Source: Luteipulveratus flavus
Lineage (GTDB): Bacteria > Actinomycetota > Actinomycetes > Actinomycetales > Dermatophilaceae
DNA: 64,000 nucleotides
NCBI RefSeq assembly: GCF_029439465.1
Contig: NZ_JAROAV010000037.1
Coordinates: 1 to 64,000, forward strand
Reading direction: 5' to 3'
Below are positions 5,091 through 54,654 of the stretch, one piece after another. The position numbers and the translations under genes were made by a program. Within the stretch, counting starts at the first letter, position 1. Each line of letters opens with the position of its first letter. The notes beneath the pieces are model-generated. The model saw only the letters and a list, made by a program, of their open reading frames with translations. It was not told the DNA's origin and did not search any database.

Positions 5091-5757
5091 TCAGCCAGCA
5101 ACCGGCGTGCAACCCCGGATCACGTTGTCCCACAGGGAGTTTCGGTCGCCCACCGGCACCCGGTCGACCGGCAGCTCGAGCTCGTCACCGACCAGCTGCC
5201 ACCACTCGGCGCTCGACGCGCATACCTGCTCGTGCAAACCCGTTCGCGTCGAAGCGGCGGTACGTCGCCCCTTTGAGCAACCGGACGACGTCGGCCGAGC
5301 GGCGCTGAGCGGACACCGCGCCGACGCAGCTGCCGAGCCCCACGTCGACCAGCCAGTCGGCGCTGTCGAGCCTCACCGTGATCACCGCGTGCTCACCGGT
5401 CGCGCCGGGCGGTGCGTCCTGGCGGCCACCCTGGACGCCGCCGCGGTGCAACCGCGCGTCGTACCCCAGCTCGCCGAGCAGCCAGTGGAACGCGCCGTTG
5501 AGGTGGAAGCAGTAGCCGCCCCAGCCGGACAGGATCCGGGAGACCGACGAGCCGACGTCGATGCCGACCTGCCTGCCGAGGGCCAGCCAGATCGTCTCGT
5601 ACGGCACGCGCTCGACGTGAGCCCGCTGCAGCTCGGTCAGGGCCTCGAGCGACGGCGGCCGACGGATGACGCCGAGCCGGTCGAGGTACGCGTCGCGGGC
5701 ACCGTGGTCTCGATACGGCTCGCCCTGCGGGGCTCGCCTACTCGACCGGCGAGACAT
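5091..5757 (-). pseudogene. nat: Arylamine N-acetyltransferase, shortened and probably frameshifted
   Basis: The open part (5185-5757, 190 codons) matches the N-terminal half of arylamine N-acetyltransferases, which transfer acetyl from acetyl-CoA to arylamines. The catalytic triad is present: Cys in GGYCFHLNGAF, His in GEHAVI and Asp in VDVGLG. The family is normally 260-280 residues; here the frame ends early with VERRVVAAGR. In another frame of the same strand a plausible C-terminal tail continues (SSAEWWQLVGDELEL, then LWDNVI) to a stop at 5091, so a frameshift near 5230 is likely, together with loss of the middle of the C-terminal domain. The ATG at 5757 and the first 17 codons come from a REP repeat, with AGGGGA upstream. 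It could still be a short expressed protein. Confidence 0.65.
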
Positions 5758-5815
5758 GGGTTCCCCTACTCGACCGGCGAGACATCGGTTCTACTCGACC
5801 GGCGAGGCATGGGTC
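5706..5815. repeat. 45-bp REP-like palindrome plus tandem partial copies
   Basis: The unit 5706-5750 begins GGTCTCGATACGGCTCGCCC and ends CTACTCGACCGGC. It is almost identical to 49853-49897 in treY and, in reverse orientation, related to 52336-52380 in the helicase gene. It is followed by three tandem copies of its right end, CTACTCGACCGGCGAGACAT or close variants (from about 5739, 5767 and 5791). The array fills the gap between rlmB and the N-acetyltransferase remnant and supplies that gene's 5' end. Confidence 0.85.
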
Positions 5816-6785
5816 AGGCGCGGGCGCGCTGGCGGGAGATCTCGTAGAGGGTGACCGAGGCGGCGATGCCGGCGTTCAGTGACTCCACGGCCGAGCTCAT
5901 CGGCACCGAGACGATCTGGTCGCAGGTCTCGCCGACGAGCCGGGACAGGCCCTTGCCCTCGGAGCCGACCACGATCACCAGCGGCTCGGACGCCAGCGTG
6001 ATCTCGGGCAGCGACACGTCGCCGTCCATGTCGAGGCCGAGCACGAAGAAGCCGGCCTTGCGGAAGTCCTCCAGCGCACGCGTCAGGTTGCCGGCCAGGG
6101 CGACCGGGACGCGTGCGGCGGCGCCGGCGGACGTCTTCCACGCGGAAGCGGTCATGCCGACGGAGCGGCGCTCGGGCACGACCACGCCGTGGCCGCCGAA
6201 CGCGGCGACCGAACGGACGATCGCGCCGAGGTTGCGCGGGTCGGTGATGCCGTCCAGCGCCACCACGAGCGGGATGCCCGGCGTCTCGGGGTCGATCAGG
6301 TCACTCGGGTGCGCGTACTCGTACGGCGGCACCTGCAGCGCGAGGCCCTGGTGGACGGCGCCGTCGGTGAGGCGGTCGAGCTCGCCGCGCGGTGTCTCCA
6401 GGATCGGGATCGCTCGGTCGGCGGCGATCTTCAGCGCCTCGCGGACCCGGTCGTCGGAGTCGATGCGGCCGGCGACGTACATCGTCGTGGCCGGGATGTC
6501 GGACCGCAGTGCCTCGACCACCGAATTGCGCCCGGCGATGACCTCCGACGACTGCTTGTTGCGCCGCTGCGGTGGCCTCGACGAACGCTGCCCGCCAGCA
6601 CCGTCACCCGCCTTGTCCGCACGCCGAGCAGCCTTGTACGCCTTGTGGTTCGGCCGCTCGGCGGCCTTCGGGGTCGGGCCCTTGCCCTCCAGGCCGCGTC
6701 GGCGCTGGCCGCCGCTGCCGACGACCGCACCCTTCTTCGAGCCTGCCTTACGGATCGCGCCTCGACGGCGCGAGTTGCCGGCCAT
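5814..6785 (-). CDS. rlmB: 23S rRNA 2'-O-methyltransferase RlmB (TrmH/SpoU family)
   Basis: SpoU-class methyltransferase that methylates the 2'-OH of a 23S rRNA guanosine (G2251 in E. coli) using S-adenosylmethionine. The 323-residue protein has a basic, disordered N-terminal extension of about 75 residues ([17 protein letters not shown]), the substrate-binding domain from [12 protein letters not shown], and the SPOUT knot with motif 1 [16 protein letters not shown], motif 2 [15 protein letters not shown] and motif 3 [19 protein letters not shown]. The ATG at 6785 lies one base after the cysS stop codon, so the two are translated from one message, an arrangement common in actinobacteria. The last codons overlap the REP array by a few bases. 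Confidence 0.95.
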
Positions 6786-46865: not shown

Positions 46866-47501
46866 TCAGTCCAGCGTCCCGGTACGCCAGAGCGAGGCGG
46901 ATCGTTGCAGGTCAGCGGCCGTCCCGAGGAGCGCGGACGCCGTCCGGGTCGCGGCCTGCGCGCCCGGCTCGTCGTGCCCGTCCTGGTCGTCCGCGCGGTG
47001 GGCGCGACCGATCGAGATCACCCGGCAGAACGCCGCAGCGCGCTCGAGCGCCACCGCGAGGTCACCCTCGAACACCCCGCGCAGGATCTCGTCGCCGAGA
47101 GCCTTGATCTGCTCCGGCCCGAACGGGTCGGCCGCCCCGGCCACGGCGTGGGCCACGTCCGCGTGCCGCATCCCGGCGTCGTAGTCGGCCGCGGCCCCGA
47201 CCGGGTCCCGGTGGACCCATTCCCGCAGCGTGTAGAGGCGCCACAGTGCTCCGGGCAGGCTGGTCGCCGGACGGGCCGCCCACAGCTCGGCCACGGTCGA
47301 GAGCCCGAGCTCGTCGACGAGGTGGATCAGCCGCGTACGCACCTGCGGATCCTGGGTCGCCCGTCCGGCACCGACCAGGACGGCAGCCGTCTCGTGGGCG
47401 ACCTCGCTGACCTGGGCAGGGTCCGGCGACTCGCCCTCGATGTCCATCTCCGCAGGAGGCCGGAAGGCCGGGCGGCGAGGGCGTCCGGGCTGGTCGGTCA
47501 T
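46866..47501 (-). CDS. Conserved helical protein of unknown function downstream of treZ
   Basis: A 211-residue, mostly helical soluble protein without a recognisable domain. It begins TDQPGRPRRPAFRPPAEMD and has a repeated pattern of amphipathic helices (VSEVAHETAAVLVGAGR, LGLSTVAELWAARPA, LWRLYTLREWVHRDP). The ATG at 47501 overlaps the treZ stop codon (ATGA), so it is the last gene of the helicase-treY-treZ chain. Its link to trehalose metabolism is context only. Confidence 0.75.
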   Translation of the reverse strand: MTDQPGRPRRPAFRPPAEMDIEGESPDPAQVSEVAHETAAVLVGAGRATQDPQVRTRLIHLVDELGLSTVAELWAARPATSLPGALWRLYTLREWVHRDPVGAAADYDAGMRHADVAHAVAGAADPFGPEQIKALGDEILRGVFEGDLAVALERAAAFCRVISIGRAHRADDQDGHDEPGAQAATRTASALLGTAADLQRSASLWRTGTLD

Positions 47502-49261
47502 GGCGTCGCGTGCTCCTTGAGGTGGGTGTGGCCACCGCCGTTCGGGCCTCGGATCACGACGCCGTCCGGGTGGACGACGGCCTTCTTGGCCCGCTCGGAG
47601 GCGCCCCGCGACCCGAGGACCGCCTCGCCCTGCGGGAGGTCGAGCGGCACGTCGTGGCCGGACAGGTTGACCACCACCGTATGCGCTCCGCGGTGGACGG
47701 TGATCACGCCGTCGACCCGGGTCACCCGCGTCGAGGCCAGCGTCGAGTTCTGCAGGTCGGGGATGGCGCGCCGCAGCCGGATCAGCCAGCGGTACCAGTT
47801 GAGCAGGTCCGCATGCTCCGGCCGGTCCAGCTCCTCCCAGCGCAGTGTCGACGCCTGTGCCGTACGCGCGTCCTGCGGGTCGGGGACCTCGTTCGCCCAA
47901 CCGTGCTCGGCGAACTCCGCTCGTCGCCCGAGGGACACCGCCGTGGCGAGCTCGGGCTCCTGGTGGTCGGTGAAGTACTGCCAGGGCGTCGAGGCACCCC
48001 ACTCCTCCCCCATGAACAGCATCGGCGTGTACGGACCCGTCAGCAGCAGCGCCGCCGCGCACGCCAGCCGTCCCGGCGACACCAGGTGCGACAGACGCTC
48101 GCCGCCGGCGCGGTTGCCGACCTGGTCGTGCGTCTGCAGCGAGGCGACGAACCGCCAGCCCGGCAGCTCCGGCGGCACCGGGCGACCGTGCGTACGGCCG
48201 CGGAAGGAGGACCAGGTGCCGTCGTGGAAGAACGGCGTCGCGAGGACCTTCCCGATGGCGTTCGGGTCGGCGAAGTCGGCGTAGTAACCCTGGGTCTCAC
48301 CCGTCAGCAGGACGTGCAGGGCGTGGTGGACGTCGTCCGCCCACTGCGCGTGGAGGCCGACCCCGCCGATGCCGCCGGGGCCGCGCCTGGCGACGGTGGC
48401 GGGGTCGTTGCGGTCCGACTCGGCGATGAGCGTCACCGGCCGGTCCAGCTCGTCGGAGAGCCGGTCGGCGTACTCGGCGAGCTCCTCGAGGAAGGTCGTG
48501 GCACGGTCGTCGACCATCGCGTGGACGGCGTCCAGCCGCAGCGCGTCGAGGTGGAAGTCGCGCAGCCACATCTCCGCGTTGTCCCGCAGGTAGCGGCGGA
48601 CCTCGTCGCTCTCCCCGCCGTCCAGGTTGACCGCCCAGCCCCACGGCGTGTGGTGGCGGTCGGTGAAGTACGGGGCGAACTCCTGCAGGTAGTTGCCGCT
48701 CGGCCCCAGGTGGTTGTAGACGACGTCGAGGCACACCCCGAGGTGGTGCTGGTGGCAGGCGTCGACGAACCGCTGCAGCGCGGCCGCCCCGCCGTACGCC
48801 TCGTGCACGGCGTACGGGGCCACACCGTCGTACCCCCAGCCGCGCCGGCCAGGGAAGGCGGCGACGGGCATCAGCTCGACCAGGGTCACGCCGAGCGAGG
48901 CGAGGTGGTCCAGATGCTCGGCGGCCGCGTCGAGGGTGCCCTCTGGAGTGAACGTGCCGATGTGCAGCTCGTAGATGATCGCGCCGTGCAGGCGGCAGCC
49001 GTCCCAGCCCTCGTCGTGCCACTCGTGGGCGTCGAGGTCGACCACCTCGGAGGCGGCGTGCGGGCCCTGGGGCTGGCTGAGGGAGCGCGGGTCCGGACGC
49101 GGGTCGCCGCCGTCGAGCCGGAAGGCGTACCGCATCCCGGGCTCGGGCTCGACGTCGCTGCTCCACCACCCGTCCGGGTCGCGGAACATCGGGGTGTCGG
49201 TGCCGTCCAGCACCAGACGCACGTCATCGCGAGTGGGCGCCCACACGCGAATCGGCTTCAT
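47498..49261 (-). CDS. treZ: Malto-oligosyltrehalose trehalohydrolase
   Basis: Second enzyme of the TreY-TreZ route: cleaves trehalose from maltooligosyltrehalose. The 587-residue GH13 protein has an N-terminal beta-sandwich domain (VWAPTRDDVRLVLDG), the barrel with LDVVYNHLGPSGNY, the nucleophile Asp in LRLDAVHAM, the acid/base Glu in LIAESDRND and the transition-state Asp in THDQVGNRA, and a C-terminal beta domain. FMGEEWGASTPW is typical of TreZ. The ATG at 49261 directly abuts the treY stop codon (49262-49264). Confidence 0.96.
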   Translation of the reverse strand: MKPIRVWAPTRDDVRLVLDGTDTPMFRDPDGWWSSDVEPEPGMRYAFRLDGGDPRPDPRSLSQPQGPHAASEVVDLDAHEWHDEGWDGCRLHGAIIYELHIGTFTPEGTLDAAAEHLDHLASLGVTLVELMPVAAFPGRRGWGYDGVAPYAVHEAYGGAAALQRFVDACHQHHLGVCLDVVYNHLGPSGNYLQEFAPYFTDRHHTPWGWAVNLDGGESDEVRRYLRDNAEMWLRDFHLDALRLDAVHAMVDDRATTFLEELAEYADRLSDELDRPVTLIAESDRNDPATVARRGPGGIGGVGLHAQWADDVHHALHVLLTGETQGYYADFADPNAIGKVLATPFFHDGTWSSFRGRTHGRPVPPELPGWRFVASLQTHDQVGNRAGGERLSHLVSPGRLACAAALLLTGPYTPMLFMGEEWGASTPWQYFTDHQEPELATAVSLGRRAEFAEHGWANEVPDPQDARTAQASTLRWEELDRPEHADLLNWYRWLIRLRRAIPDLQNSTLASTRVTRVDGVITVHRGAHTVVVNLSGHDVPLDLPQGEAVLGSRGASERAKKAVVHPDGVVIRGPNGGGHTHLKEHATP

Positions 49262-51922
49262 CTAGGACTGCCTCTCCAGCAGGGCCACCGGGAGCGTCGC
49301 CATCAGGTCGGCGCACCGGGCGGGCCCGTCGACGTCGTACGTGCGCCCGGTCAGCAGGTCGCGCCACGTCCCGGGCTCGAGTTCGACGGTAGCGTCCGAC
49401 CAGCCGCCTGTGCGGTCTAGACGTCGACCTGCTCGCGTGGTGAGCACGGCCACGGCGCTCCGCCTGCTCCGGCCGAGCACGCCGGCGACCAGCCCCGGCT
49501 CGTGCCGGCGCACGAACCCGACCACGTGCTCGCTGCTGGAGACCACCGGTGCGTACGTCGCCTGGGCGCCGAACAGCTCCGGCACCCGCTGCCTCAGCTG
49601 CAGCGCCGTCCGGGTGACCAGCATCTTCGCCTCGTCCAGCCCCCCGCTGGTTGAGCCGTCGCCACCCCCGCTGGTTGAGCCGCCGCCCCCACCCCCGCTG
49701 GTTGAGCCGTCCACACTCCCGCTGGTTGAGCCGTCCCCACCCCCGCTGGTTGAGCCGTCCGCACCCCCGCTGGTTGAGCCGTCCGGAGCGCTAGCGAAGG
49801 ACGAGTCGAAACCCGGTGACGTCCGGGGAGAGTCTCCGTCCGCGGCTACGGGGGTCTCGATACGGCTCGCCCTGGGGGGCTCGCCTACTCGACCGGCGGG
49901 TGCGACATCGTCCCGGCCGGTGAGGGCGCGGCGGGCGGCGTAGTCGACGGGGCGGCGGTTGTCCGGGTCCACCAGCGACAGGTCGACCACCTCGCAGCCC
50001 TGGTAGGTGTCCGGCACGCCGGGCAGCATCAGCTGAAGCAGCTTCGCGCCGAGCGTGGTCGCGGCGATGGCGCCGGCGTTCGCCTCGAGCGCCGCGTCGA
50101 TGGCGTCCTTGAGCGGGCCGCCCTTGGTCACGCCGATCGCGAGGTCGATGACGCGCTGCTCGTACGCCTCGTCCCCGTCGACCCAGGCGGTGTGCACCTT
50201 CGCCTCGCGCAGGGCCTTGCGCAGGTACTCCGACAGCCGCTCCCCGCCGATGTCACCGACGCCGGCGAGGGTCTGCCACACCAGGTGGCCGGTCGGCCGG
50301 TCGACGCCCGCCTCGTCGGCCGCGACCCGAGCCGCCGCCGAGCAGGCCGCCCACGCGTCCGGGTCGCCGGCGAGCGCGAGCAGCCGAGCACGCACGTCCT
50401 CGCTTCGCTTGTTGTCGTGGGTCGACAACGTGGTCATGCCGAGCGGCCAGTGCTCCTGCTGCCAGGCCGCCCAGTCGTGCAGCGCCTGCGGGCTCGCGTC
50501 GGCGACGACGGTCGGGTCGCCGCCGACCTCGTTCAGGGCGACGAGGCGGTGCCAGCGGTAGAACGAGGTGTCCTCGATGCCCTTGGCCATCACCGGACCC
50601 CAGGTCTGCTGCAGCCGGATGCCGAAGTCGGTCGCGGCCTCGTCGTCGTCGGCCAGCACGGTCAACGGGATGAGCGCGGTCAGCTCCGGCTCGAGGTCCG
50701 GACGCTGCCCGATCGCCCCCGCGAACGCGTCGGTGAGGCGAGCACGCGTCGTCCGGGTCATCCGGTGGTCGGGCCGGACGTACGCGCGGTACACCTCGCC
50801 GGCGACCAGCAGCTCCACGACGGCCTCGCGCAGCCGCTCGGGGTCCAGGTCGGGCAGCGTCTCGCGCGCCCGGCGGGTGAGGCGCTCGACCTCGGGGGCC
50901 AGCGACTGGTCGACGACCTGCCGCTTGGACTCCTGGACCGTCGTCTCGAACGAGCGGTTACCGTCGGCGTCCGCCCAGGTCTGGTCGAGGACGGGCGCGC
51001 TCGCGGGGTCGGTCAGGGCGATCTGCACGGCCCGGATGGCGTCGTACCCGGTGGTGCCCTCGCAGCGCCAGTCCCGCGGCAGCCGCTCCCCCGGCTCGAG
51101 GATCTTCTCGACCCAGACGGGCGTGCCCTTCTCGCAGGCGGCGCTGAGGCGTTCGAGGTACCCCGTCGGATCGGCGAGGCCGTCCGGGTGGTCGATGCGG
51201 AAGCCGTCGATGAGCCCGCGGTGGTGCAGGTCGAGCAGCAGGGCGTGGGTGACGTCGAAGACCTCGGGCAGCTCGACGCGGATGGCGATCAGGCCGTCGA
51301 CCTCGAAGAAGCGCCGGTAGTTGAGCACCTCGTCCTTGTCGCGCCAGCTGGTCAACCGGTAGTGCTGGCGCTGCAGGATCTCACCCACGTCGTCGCCGGT
51401 GTCGGTGCCGAGCGCGACCGGGTAGACGTGGTCGAAGTAGCGCAGGACGGGTTCGCCATCCAGCTCGTCCAGACGAATCTCATTGTCGCTCAGGGCTTCC
51501 AGGGTCGGCTTGCCGAGTACGGGCAGCCCGATCCGGCCACCGCCGGCCTTCCAGTCGATGTCGAACCAGTCGGCCGTCGGGGCGTCGCGGCCCTCCTTGA
51601 GCAGCTGCCAGACCTGGTGGTTGTCCGGCGTCTCGAACGCCATGTGGTTGGGGACGACGTCGACCACGATCCCGAGGTCGTACGCGTGGGCGCGCGCGGC
51701 CAGCGCCTCGAACCCCTCGATGCCGCCGAGCTCCTCGCTGATGTGCGAGTGGTCGGTGACGTCGTACCCGTGCATCGAGCCGCGGACGGCCTGCAGGATC
51801 GGCGACAGGTAGAGGTGGGAGACGCCCAGACCGGCGAGGTAGTCGACCTGCTCGGCGGCATCGGCGAACGTGAACCCGGCGTGCAGCTGCAACCGGTACG
51901 TCCCGGTGACCGGGCGGCTCAT
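49262..51922 (-). CDS. treY: Malto-oligosyltrehalose synthase with repeat-derived in-frame insertion
   Basis: First enzyme of the TreY-TreZ route: turns the reducing end of maltodextrin into a trehalosyl unit. The 886-residue GH13 protein is about 90-100 residues longer than most homologues. Motifs are TYRLQLHAGFTFADAAEQVD, VDVVPNHM, FRIDHPDGLADP with the nucleophile, the acid/base in VWVEKILEPGE, TLSTHDNKRSEDVRARL and NRRPVDYAARRAL. Residues about 673-762 are a low-complexity insertion with six GSTSG blocks, encoded by REP-like repeats between the end of the catalytic domain and KMLVTRTALQLRQ. The frame is kept. The ATG at 51922 overlaps the helicase stop codon (ATGA). Activity is likely retained if the loop is on the surface, but this is not proven. 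Confidence 0.95.
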   Translation of the reverse strand: MSRPVTGTYRLQLHAGFTFADAAEQVDYLAGLGVSHLYLSPILQAVRGSMHGYDVTDHSHISEELGGIEGFEALAARAHAYDLGIVVDVVPNHMAFETPDNHQVWQLLKEGRDAPTADWFDIDWKAGGGRIGLPVLGKPTLEALSDNEIRLDELDGEPVLRYFDHVYPVALGTDTGDDVGEILQRQHYRLTSWRDKDEVLNYRRFFEVDGLIAIRVELPEVFDVTHALLLDLHHRGLIDGFRIDHPDGLADPTGYLERLSAACEKGTPVWVEKILEPGERLPRDWRCEGTTGYDAIRAVQIALTDPASAPVLDQTWADADGNRSFETTVQESKRQVVDQSLAPEVERLTRRARETLPDLDPERLREAVVELLVAGEVYRAYVRPDHRMTRTTRARLTDAFAGAIGQRPDLEPELTALIPLTVLADDDEAATDFGIRLQQTWGPVMAKGIEDTSFYRWHRLVALNEVGGDPTVVADASPQALHDWAAWQQEHWPLGMTTLSTHDNKRSEDVRARLLALAGDPDAWAACSAAARVAADEAGVDRPTGHLVWQTLAGVGDIGGERLSEYLRKALREAKVHTAWVDGDEAYEQRVIDLAIGVTKGGPLKDAIDAALEANAGAIAATTLGAKLLQLMLPGVPDTYQGCEVVDLSLVDPDNRRPVDYAARRALTGRDDVAPAGRVGEPPRASRIETPVAADGDSPRTSPGFDSSFASAPDGSTSGGADGSTSGGGDGSTSGSVDGSTSGGGGGGSTSGGGDGSTSGGLDEAKMLVTRTALQLRQRVPELFGAQATYAPVVSSSEHVVGFVRRHEPGLVAGVLGRSRRSAVAVLTTRAGRRLDRTGGWSDATVELEPGTWRDLLTGRTYDVDGPARCADLMATLPVALLERQS
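49636..49897. repeat. REP-like repeat array inside treY
   Basis: Six copies of GCTGGTTGAGCCG start at 49646, 49670, 49697, 49721, 49745 and 49769; the spacings 24, 27, 24, 24 and 24 are all multiples of three. They are followed by CTAGCGAAGGACGAGTCGAA (the companion arm) and by a 45-bp palindrome at 49853-49897 (GGTCTCGATACGGCTCGCCC to CTACTCGACCGGC) that differs from the copy at 5706-5750 by about one base. Confidence 0.9.
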
Positions 51923-54483
51923 CCGTCCAGCCTGTTCAGGCCGAGGACCACGATCACGGCCGTACCGGCCTCGTCGGAGGCCCGCAGCGGGACCTGCGCG
52001 TCGATGCCCCAGTCACTGTCGCCGTCCGGGTCCTCGATCACCTGACGTACCTCCCACATGTCCGGCTTCTCCTCGATCTGCAGCAGCTTCGGGCCGCGCG
52101 CGGTCTGGCTCGTACCCATCTCGTCGTGCTCGTCGAAGTAGGCCGAGATGTCCTCGTGCCAGGCGGCCTCGTCCATGACGATCTCGGTCGGCGGCTCCGT
52201 CGCCTCGGCGGCGTCGCGGTCGAGGGCGGCGAGCGCGGGGTACCGGCGGCGGGCGGCGAGCTCGATTCTCCGGAACATCGCGTTGCGGACCTGGACGCGG
52301 AACGCGCGCTTGTTGGCCGTGACCGGGCGCTCCACGCCGGTCGAGCCGGCGAGCCCCCCAGGTCGAGCCGTGTCGAGACCGGCGGCGAGCTCGTCGGGGT
52401 TGGTCAGCGCCTCCCACTCGTCGAGCAGGCTGGAGTCGGTCTGCCGGATCAGCTCGCCGAGCCACTCGATGACGTCCTCGACCTCGGTCGTCTTCCGGCT
52501 GTCGGGCACCGTCTGGCGCAGCGTGCGGTACGCGTCGGTGAGGTAGCGCAGCACGATCCCCTCGGAGCGCGACAGCTCGTACTGCTTCACGAGATCGCCG
52601 AAGCTCCAGGCGTTCTCGTACATCTCACGTACGACGGCCTTGGGCGACAGGGCGTTCTCGGCGACCCACGGCTGCCCGCTGCGGTATGTCTCGAACGTCG
52701 CCTCCAGCAGCTCGGCCAGCGGCTTGGGCCAGGTGACCTCCTCCAGCAGCTCCATCCGCTCGTCGTACTCGATGCCGTCGGCCTTCATCTCGGCGACGGC
52801 CTCGCCGCGGGCCTTGAACTGCTGCGACATCAGGATCGGGCGCGGGTCGTCCAGGATCGACTCGATCACGGACACGACGTCGACGGCGTACGAATCCCCT
52901 TCAGGATCCAGCACATCCAGCACCGCGAGCGCGAACGGCGCGAGTGGCTGGTTGAGCGCGAAGTTGTCCTGCAGGTCGACGGTGAGCCGCACCTGGCGGC
53001 CGTCGGCCTCGGGGACGGACAGCTTCTCGACGACACCCGCGGCGAGCAGCTCGCGGTAGAGGGTGACGGCCTTACGGGAGAGACGAGCCTGACGTCGCGG
53101 GTCCTCGTGATTGTCGCGCATCAGCCGGCGGACACCGGTGAACGGATCTCCTTCTCGCGCAATGATGTTCAGCAGCATCGAGTGGGTCACGCGCATGCGG
53201 GACTGCAGCGCCTCCGGCTGCGCCTCGACGAGCCGGTCGAAGGTGTCCTCCGACCAGCTGATGAACCCCTCCGGCGCCTTCTTGCGCTGCACCTTGCGCT
53301 GCTTCTTGGGGTCGTCGCCGGCCTTGGCGAGCGCGCGGGCGTTCTCGATCGTGTGCTCGGGCGCCTGGACGACCACCGAGCCGCTCGTGTCGTACCCGGC
53401 GCGTCCGGCCCGGCCGGCGATCTGGTGGAACTCGCGCGCCTTGAGAACGCGCTGCCGGGAGCCGTCGAACTTGGTCAGGCCGGTGAACACCACCGTGCGG
53501 ATGGGGACGTTGATGCCGACGCCGAGCGTGTCCGTGCCGCAGATGACCTTGAGCAGCCCCGCCTGTGCGAGCGTCTCCACCAGGCGGCGGTACTTGGGCA
53601 GCATGCCCGCGTGGTGGACGCCGATCCCGTGACGCACCAACCGGTTCAGCGTCTTGCCGAAGCCCGCGGCGAACCGGAACCCGCCGATGATCTCGGCGAT
53701 CTTGTCGCGGTCCTCCTTGGACGCGATCTTCAGGCTCATCAGCGACTGGGCCCGTTCCAGCGCGGCCGCCTGGGTGAAGTGCACGACGTACACCGGCGCC
53801 TGACGGGTGGTGAGCAGCTCCTCGAGCGTCTCGTGCAGCGGCGTCATCGCCCAGGAGAACGACAAGGGCACCGGCCGCTCGGCCGTCGCGACGGTCGCCG
53901 TGGCACGCCCCGTACGGCGGGTGAGGTCCTGCTCGAACATCGCGACGTCGCCGAGGGTCGCCGACATGAGGACGAACTGCGCCTGCGGGAGCTCCAGCAG
54001 TGGCACCTGCCAGGCCCAGCCGCGGTCGGGCTCGGAGTAGAAGTGGAACTCGTCCATGATCACCATGCCGACGTCGGCGGTGGGGCCCTCGCGCAGTGCG
54101 ATGTTGGCGAGGACCTCGGCGGTGCAGCAGATGATCGGGGCATCGGCGTTGACGGAAGCGTCGCCGGTGAGCATGCCGACGTTGTCCGCGCCGAAGATCT
54201 CGCACAGGGCGAAGAACTTCTCGCTCACCAGCGCCTTGATCGGTGCGGTGTAGAAGGAGACGCGGTCCTCGGCGAGCGCCGCGAAGTGGGCGGCCGTGGC
54301 GACCATCGACTTCCCGGAGCCGGTCGGCGTCGCGAGGATGACGTTCGCGCCGCCGACGATCTCGATGACCGCCTCCTCCTGGTGCGGGTAGAGCGTCAGC
54401 CCGCGCTCGGTCGCCCACCGCGCGAACGCGTCGTACAGCGCGTCGGGGCCGGGTTCGGCAGGGATTCGGTCGGTGAGGTTCAT
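51919..54483 (-). CDS. DEAD/DEAH-box RNA helicase, Ski2-like (DUF3516 type)
   Basis: An 854-residue superfamily 2 helicase of the Ski2/Mtr4-like group with a C-terminal DUF3516 domain, found in actinobacteria and proposed to act on RNA. Motifs: Q region LTLYPHQEEAV, Walker A ATPTGSGKS, Ia YTAPIKALVSEKF, II MDEFH, III MSATL, V CGTDTLGVGINVP, VI QIAGRAGRAGYD. The C-terminal domain includes SWSEDTFDRLVEAQPEAL and VTANKRAFRVQVRNAMFRR. Residues about 701-716 (TARPGGLAGSTGVERP) derive from a REP copy inserted in frame. The ATG at 54483 starts a chain with treY and treZ through short overlaps. Confidence 0.92.
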   Translation of the reverse strand: MNLTDRIPAEPGPDALYDAFARWATERGLTLYPHQEEAVIEIVGGANVILATPTGSGKSMVATAAHFAALAEDRVSFYTAPIKALVSEKFFALCEIFGADNVGMLTGDASVNADAPIICCTAEVLANIALREGPTADVGMVIMDEFHFYSEPDRGWAWQVPLLELPQAQFVLMSATLGDVAMFEQDLTRRTGRATATVATAERPVPLSFSWAMTPLHETLEELLTTRQAPVYVVHFTQAAALERAQSLMSLKIASKEDRDKIAEIIGGFRFAAGFGKTLNRLVRHGIGVHHAGMLPKYRRLVETLAQAGLLKVICGTDTLGVGINVPIRTVVFTGLTKFDGSRQRVLKAREFHQIAGRAGRAGYDTSGSVVVQAPEHTIENARALAKAGDDPKKQRKVQRKKAPEGFISWSEDTFDRLVEAQPEALQSRMRVTHSMLLNIIAREGDPFTGVRRLMRDNHEDPRRQARLSRKAVTLYRELLAAGVVEKLSVPEADGRQVRLTVDLQDNFALNQPLAPFALAVLDVLDPEGDSYAVDVVSVIESILDDPRPILMSQQFKARGEAVAEMKADGIEYDERMELLEEVTWPKPLAELLEATFETYRSGQPWVAENALSPKAVVREMYENAWSFGDLVKQYELSRSEGIVLRYLTDAYRTLRQTVPDSRKTTEVEDVIEWLGELIRQTDSSLLDEWEALTNPDELAAGLDTARPGGLAGSTGVERPVTANKRAFRVQVRNAMFRRIELAARRRYPALAALDRDAAEATEPPTEIVMDEAAWHEDISAYFDEHDEMGTSQTARGPKLLQIEEKPDMWEVRQVIEDPDGDSDWGIDAQVPLRASDEAGTAVIVVLGLNRLDG
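52336..52380. repeat. 45-bp REP-like element inside the helicase gene
   Basis: The 45-bp stretch begins GCCGGTCGAGCCGGCGAGCC and ends GTCGAGACC. It is the reverse complement, with a few changes, of the palindromes at 5706-5750 and 49853-49897; the inner GGCGAGCCCCCCAGG part and both ends match. It lies within the helicase reading frame and adds about 15 residues just before the conserved VTANKRAFRV. Confidence 0.8.
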
Positions 54484-54548
54484 CGCGGACCCATCCTCGC
54501 GTACGCGTCCCTCACCCGACCGCTTCCCCCACCCCCAGACTCCGCGAA

Positions 54549-54654
54549 TCTCGACTACCCGGCGCTCCATGCCGGGCCGGACAGACGAGATCCGCCGCCT
54601 CCCCACCGCGAGTTTCGACTACCCGGCGCTCCATGCCGGGCCGGACAGACGAGA
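54549..54654. repeat. Two copies of a 42-bp palindromic repeat
   Basis: Copies at 54549-54590 and 54613-54654 share TCGACTACCCGGCGCTCCAT followed by GCCGGGCCGGACAGACGAGA, 64 bp apart and in the same direction. Each has a central hairpin CCCGGC-GCTCCAT-GCCGGG. They fill much of the 247-bp gap between the start of the helicase gene and the UBP zinc-finger gene. This family differs from the other repeats in the window. Confidence 0.85.

Follow-up and report, generated by a model that had tools for sequence, protein, structure and literature searches.

The treY gene of Luteipulveratus flavus, which encodes malto-oligosyltrehalose synthase, contains an array of short repeats within its coding region. 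Such an arrangement raises a question: what is this repeated DNA, and how does an enzyme come to carry it? We addressed this question in the window (the whole 64-kb stretch of DNA that was analysed) and by comparison with related genomes, above all those of two congeners, designated G001 and G002.

A repeat array and a palindromic element in treY

The 13-mer GCTGGTTGAGCCG occurs in six exact copies within treY, starting on the + strand at 49646, 49670, 49697, 49721, 49745, and 49769, and together spanning 49646-49781. As a preliminary description of this DNA had reported, the spacings are 24, 27, 24, 24, and 24 bp, and the array is read through: all six units have the same codon phase in the minus-strand ORF, which has no internal stop. 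The spacers between the units are not identical. When up to two mismatches were allowed, the 64-kb window held 19 matches to GCTGGTTGAGCCG against 3.15 expected, a number that none of 100 shuffles reached.

The sixth unit is the start of a longer, palindromic element, and the five others are tandem copies of its head. It runs from an A arm (head, hairpin, and tail GAGTCGAAACC) through a central part to a B arm in inverted orientation, which ends in CTACTCGACCGGC. The “45-bp palindrome” of the preliminary description has to be corrected on this point: 45 bp is the length of one arm (49769-49813), whereas the whole element measures 129 bp (49769-49897). An alignment, A1, of 26 of the 27 distinct element copies shows two stems, an outer one of 10 bp and an inner one, together with two hairpins in the arms. 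Seven of the 26 predicted pairs have changed on both sides, five of these seven within the hairpins. The outer stem (A1 columns 1-10 with 130-139) supplies the element with terminal inverted repeats like those of a MITE. As single-stranded DNA, the treY copy showed a stability not above that of shuffles (z 0.56).

Table 1. Features of the window that bear on the treY insert
Feature	Coordinates	Strand	Evidence
treY, malto-oligosyltrehalose synthase, 886 aa, with insert	49262-51922	-	ORF; TIGR02401, 788 bits; AlphaFold2 model against 6lcu, TM 0.93 (target length)
treZ, next downstream of treY, full-length match	47498-49261	-	TIGR02402, 724 bits
Inserted linker, TreY codons 673-758; sole segment with pLDDT <50	49649-49906	-	AlphaFold2 model; insert absent in the three other genera examined in detail
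Core palindromic element, 129 bp, A arm to B arm	49769-49897	+	Covariance model R1, 112 bits (the treY copy is itself among the 26 copies that built R1); alignment A1
A arm: head GCTGGTTGAGCCG, hairpin, tail GAGTCGAAACC	49769-49813	+	Sequence, alignment A1
B arm, inverted; on the + strand GGTCTCGATACGG ... CTACTCGACCGGC	49853-49897	-	Sequence, alignment A1
Five additional tandem heads with spacers (24, 27, 24, 24, 24 bp)	49646-49768	+	Repeat search
Right half-element within the DUF3516 helicase gene (51919-54606) beside treY; in-frame translation GLDTARPGGLAGSTG	52336-52380	-	Sequence
Half-element with tandem heads 25 and 28 bp apart, just past the stop of a minus-strand ORF ending at 5817	5706-5803	-	Non-coding comparison in the window

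A predicted unstructured linker in TreY

The translated insert had been described as a GSTSG-rich linker of about 90 residues. It comprises 86 residues, and the GSTSG-rich character holds for its second part; the first part reads AGRVGEPPRASRIETPVAADGDSPRTSPGFDSSFASAP. In an AlphaFold2 model of TreY (mean pLDDT 86.7, pTM 0.87; calculated from a 31-row alignment that did not contain congener G002), this stretch lies between helices 661-671 and 759-779, and it is predicted to be an unstructured linker. The matching stretch in solved TreY structures (6lcu) is 12 residues long (643-654). Among 77 aligned TreY proteins, the segment containing the loop has 145 residues here and 53-120 residues in 75 of the 76 others, the last one being cut. 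The longest of those other loops, from Tessaracoccus rhinocerotis (L044), holds an unrelated tandem repeat.

In a scan of named genera, the closest TreY was that of Flexivirga meconopsidis (75% in the best segment); the proteins of the two congeners stand at 84% and 82%. Purifying selection acts on treY on both sides of the insert. Against the two congeners, dN/dS was 0.099/0.48 and 0.105/0.60 upstream of the insert and 0.255/0.50 and 0.235/0.88 downstream of it, with dN thus higher downstream. TreY carrying the insert is presumably made and works.

A patchily distributed family, abundant in this genus

This genome contains 136 exact copies of the GCTGGTTGAGCCG 13-mer and none of the reversed control. 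Among 198 genomes drawn from the order (own included, congeners G001 and G002 outside the draw), this genome alone had more than five exact copies. The R1 covariance model (128 positions; up to 150 candidates were scored per genome) matched at least 132 times in this genome and at least 103 and 143 times in the two congeners, counting both strands. In a sample of 40 genomes of the family, six had matches (own, G203, G214, G215, G138, and G222), as did, under stricter filters, three of 79 genomes of the order (own, G023, and G056, the latter two belonging to another family). These counts describe a patchy actinobacterial element family that is very abundant in this genus.

Most element copies lie outside genes. 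When 131 distinct full-length copies were scored by codon usage, 108 lacked any in-frame coding flank, 18 had one, and five had both; the treY copy was scored on one side only in this set, and the dnaX copy (see below) is not part of it. The preliminary description had called the family normally intergenic in actinobacteria, which is partly right: the exact head is repeated in this genome alone of the 198, but R1 relatives are present in five of 39 other genomes of the family and in two of another family. Refinement of the ends succeeded for 129 of 133 copies, and these measure 103-137 bp. In this assembly, the ends of several contigs lie no more than about 300 bases from an element copy.

Some copies outside recognised genes (L202, L210, L233, and L235) are close kin of the form found in genes. 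In a tree of 133 copies, which is poorly resolved, the in-gene label changes 10 times versus 12.6 in shuffles (three of 500 shuffles were as low), and the starred branches force at least five changes. In-gene copies are thus mildly clustered and do not have one origin. A single coding lineage of elements was considered and is not supported by this tree.

In-frame copies in other genes

Is treY an isolated case? Nine copies are read in frame and flanked left and right by one and the same gene; they represent eight gene families in the three species. In this genome they lie in treY, in cobN, in the gene of an E2 acyltransferase (between the lipoyl and E3-binding domains), and in that of a transglutaminase/DUF2126 protein; in G002, in purL and a NirB-like reductase gene; and in G001, in a NirB-like reductase gene (the product 76% identical to that of G002), an FdhB-like iron-sulfur protein gene, and dnaX. 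The names NirB-like and FdhB-like reflect scores below the NCBIfam cut-offs. Further copies, with start and stop sites less certain than for the internal ones, lie at protein ends: at the C-termini of GlgB, of an SPFH (Band 7) protein in each of the three species, and of AtuA-like, methyltransferase, and aldolase-like proteins, and at the N-termini of an ABC ATPase and, in two species, an SDR protein. We assigned the names AtuA, SDR, aldolase, and methyltransferase by reading the sequences rather than by family search. The SDR copy of G001 (L172) may precede its gene, as an ATG directly follows the element. The likeness to the Rickettsia palindromic elements (RPE), drawn in the preliminary description, is borne out by these in-frame copies in several more genes of the three congeners.

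The in-gene copies are read in a consistent manner. Each of the nine internal copies has its right end translated in the Ser-Thr-Ser/Asn (...STS/STN) frame. Most copies with the B arm at the left start with AGRVGEPPRASRIET or near it, and those with the A arm at the left start with LVEP, the latter needing a length different from the former. Descriptively, all 12 in-gene copies examined for length and frame are 129 bp long and open in one frame, compared with 14 and 29, respectively, of 117 others; the 12 remain from 13 copies that were picked by the B-left frame (one was lost at end refinement), and the 117 still include in-gene or gene-end copies (at least L131, L197, and L227). We excluded seven copies with an open frame (L127, L145, L162, L180, L190, L191, and L210) from the in-gene count, since either the apparent start of the gene lay past the element or the flank had a non-coding score; two of them, L190 and L191, read the element in other frames, near an uncertain start. 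In G023, which belongs to the other family, a two-ABC-domain protein carries in its linker an in-frame element flanked left and right by tandem heads (L155, 1-2571), and there the element is read in another reading frame.

Selection on the peptide that the element encodes was also considered. Thirteen copies that lie in genes or at their ends show 738, 567, and 646 differences at codon positions 1, 2, and 3, respectively; with no third-position excess in this set, there is no sign of such selection.

Spacings and the reading frame

All spacings in the treY array are multiples of three, from which the preliminary description had concluded that selection kept the frame while the array grew. For treY alone, this argument is weak. 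Tandem heads are frequent outside genes as well, at spacings of 16-45 bp (search range 14-50 bp), and the all-multiples-of-three pattern is found in 32 of 86 arrays outside our list of in-gene and gene-end arrays, or in nine of 35 (hand count) when at least two spacings are required. A single array such as that of treY would thus pass by chance about once in three to four times.

The set as a whole does not pass by chance. In the listed arrays, a list made by hand, 29 of 31 spacings are divisible by three, versus 58 of 141 elsewhere, and 11 of 12 listed arrays have all spacings divisible by three, versus the 32 of 86 (Fisher p = 4e-4). Counting the L173 array outside the list changes these numbers to 10 of 11 versus 33 of 87 (p = 0.001). 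The sole listed exception is the SPFH array of this genome, with 29 + 28 + 27 = 84 bp. Outside the coding frame, the window offers the array past a stop codon at 5706-5803, with its spacings of 25 and 28 bp. All spacings are equal in 21 of the 36 outside-list arrays with at least two spacings (L173 included), as copying of units would give.

Orthologous sites in the congeners

The preliminary description had proposed comparison of TreY with that of relatives as a check. The treY genes of Flexivirga, Allobranchiibius, and Leekyejoonella have neither a half-element nor a remnant. That of G001 has a right half-element, SPVTSRGFDTDSASASSGSTS, and that of G002 has an apparent 12-base left tail remnant, GGTATCGAGACC, in the same codon frame and judged by eye. 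With apparent element parts in the treY of both congeners, the insertion seems older than the preliminary description implied. Most simply, it would predate the split of the three species, a dating that leans in part on the short G002 remnant judged by eye.

Other sites present further states. In purL, the G002 copy is complete and flanked left and right by tandem heads, and G001 has a right half. The DUF3516 helicase gene has a right half here (52336-52380) versus a left half (IAGRVDGALAETYRDP) at the same place in G002. In cobN, the element is absent from both congeners. Congener matches to the transglutaminase gene end at residue 128-129 and restart at 186-190. The NirB-like site holds a copy with two A arms in G001 and a B-type copy in G002 (L195 and L174), and the presence of different element types at one site suggests exchange or repeated insertion.

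With whole, half, remnant, differing, and absent copies at orthologous sites, the insertions seem to be of several ages, and old ones seem to lose parts in frame as they decay. A broader proposition, which we offer tentatively and regard as possible rather than probable, is that the element may be a continuing source of disordered linkers: sites would outlast speciation, the element type would be swapped, the ends would grow and shrink in frame, and the linkers would evolve by turnover of repeats and not by point mutation.

One further site touches on the assembly. In this genome (G000), purL is split between contig C13 (L117 and L241) and the start of contig C32 (L239), at an element copy with a TAG. 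The split is probably a misjoin at the repeat; a real break is less likely.

Origin of the treY insert

The explanation that we favor, with a probability of about 0.8 for the whole, is that a non-autonomous palindromic element entered treY, was expanded there in frame, and is tolerated by the enzyme. An element of approximately 129 bp with two inverted, hairpin-bearing arms is dispersed through the genus and would be mobile. One copy would have entered treY, on the simplest reading ahead of the divergence of the three species. Its site would have been the loop that joins the catalytic part to the C-terminal domain, a place at which TreY is variable in length in any case. Here the copy would have remained complete and open, and its head at the 3' end (in the coding sense) would have given rise to five further units of 24 or 27 bp, probably through slippage or through unequal recombination between direct repeats. 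Changes that break the frame would have been purged by selection on the enzyme. The product would be an unstructured linker that the enzyme tolerates, and the same would have happened at other protein linkers and ends. The element is best read as selfish DNA, with tolerance at positions where a protein can accommodate a loose loop. The element-free sites have diverged too far for a target-site duplication to be recognised.

An alternative is that the linker is a useful, selected flexible hinge, the element having been domesticated as an evolvable linker. Copies do persist at orthologous sites (the SPFH C-terminus in three species, the NirB-like and SDR sites in two, and whole or part copies in treY and the DUF3516 helicase gene), and the shared Ser-Thr-Ser/Asn frame of the right end would suit this idea. 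We nevertheless regard it as unlikely: treY retains just a half-element in one congener and a remnant in the other, and neither in three other genera, in-gene copies lack a third-position excess, and neutral tolerance suffices for sites that are linkers or ends. Low-complexity drift in a variable TreY loop, with no mobile element involved, could appeal to the range of loop lengths (53-120 residues in 75 of 76 others) and to the unrelated repeat of T. rhinocerotis, yet it is already contradicted by the full-length match of the insert to a dispersed element with kin both in other genes and outside genes, and is highly improbable.

The preliminary description had also raised an assembly artefact, i.e., a collapsed or misjoined repeat at treY. 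Several contigs do end near element copies, and purL appears misjoined at one; at treY, however, both flanks belong to one gene on one contig and are in frame, the unit spacers differ, and the congener assemblies (three contigs and one contig) have similar in-gene copies as well as element parts at the treY site. An artefact here is thus very unlikely. Finally, some bacterial genes have inserts that are removed or bypassed, and the insert might likewise be cut from the RNA or skipped in translation and so be absent from the protein. Nothing in our data spoke for this. Bypass would not need the frame, which is kept through the insert and through the arrays in many genes, and this is the least probable of the explanations weighed against the insertion, in-frame expansion, and tolerance of a palindromic element.

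Relation to known elements

Protein-coding palindromes are best known from Rickettsia; here they lie in central genes (purL, dnaX, cobN, and treY) of an actinobacterial genus. Palindromes within genes are themselves already known, as RPE, ERIC, YPAL, and GTAG/CGTC REPs, from the excerpted literature that we consulted. Within the scope of our searches, three aspects are new: the lineage, the expansion of element ends as in-frame tandem arrays in several genes, and the occurrence of whole, half, or differing copies at orthologous sites. We found no report of intragenic palindromes from actinobacteria in the open-licence literature, which is not proof of their absence. With whole, half, and remnant copies at orthologous sites, the three species form a natural series in which to study the entry of selfish DNA into proteins, the time for which proteins tolerate it, and whether it ever becomes useful.

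An excerpt of PMC2229807 describes RPE as palindromic repeats of 105-146 bp that lie between genes and in frame within conserved genes; one RPE-bearing product that was tested was active, with a changed affinity (PMC2229807), and a Wolbachia counterpart is cited. By that description, the present element is similar in being a dispersed palindrome of about 100-150 bp found in frame in several unrelated conserved genes. It differs in its host, a high-GC actinobacterium, in its two-armed A/B structure, and in heads that expand in tandem and in frame at either end. The MITE-like ERIC/IRU (127 bp) and YPAL (~168 bp) repeats can likewise be fused in frame to ORFs, according to the same excerpt (PMC2229807). 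Compared by description, those repeats belong to enterobacteria and Yersinia, and the excerpt describes no tandem head arrays for them.

The preliminary description had called the array REP-like. A dispersed palindrome that has expanded in frame within treY is supported; a REP in the strict sense has not been demonstrated. In excerpts of PMC3733652, GTAG/CGTC REPs occur within genes of Opitutus terrae, Thauera, and Rickettsia conorii and in Xanthomonas recB; intragenic clusters sometimes encode 43-82 aa, and recB of two Xanthomonas species was hit at approximately the same site. The present element resembles them in having hairpin repeats that are read in frame inside genes, and it differs in being longer and two-armed. 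A search for one transposase family, PF01797 (Y1/RAYT-type), found the domain in none of the three congeneric genomes; its control matched in five of 14 genomes. At the position of the GTAG/CGTC tag, the bases before the hairpin are GAGTAG in B heads and GAGCCG in A heads.
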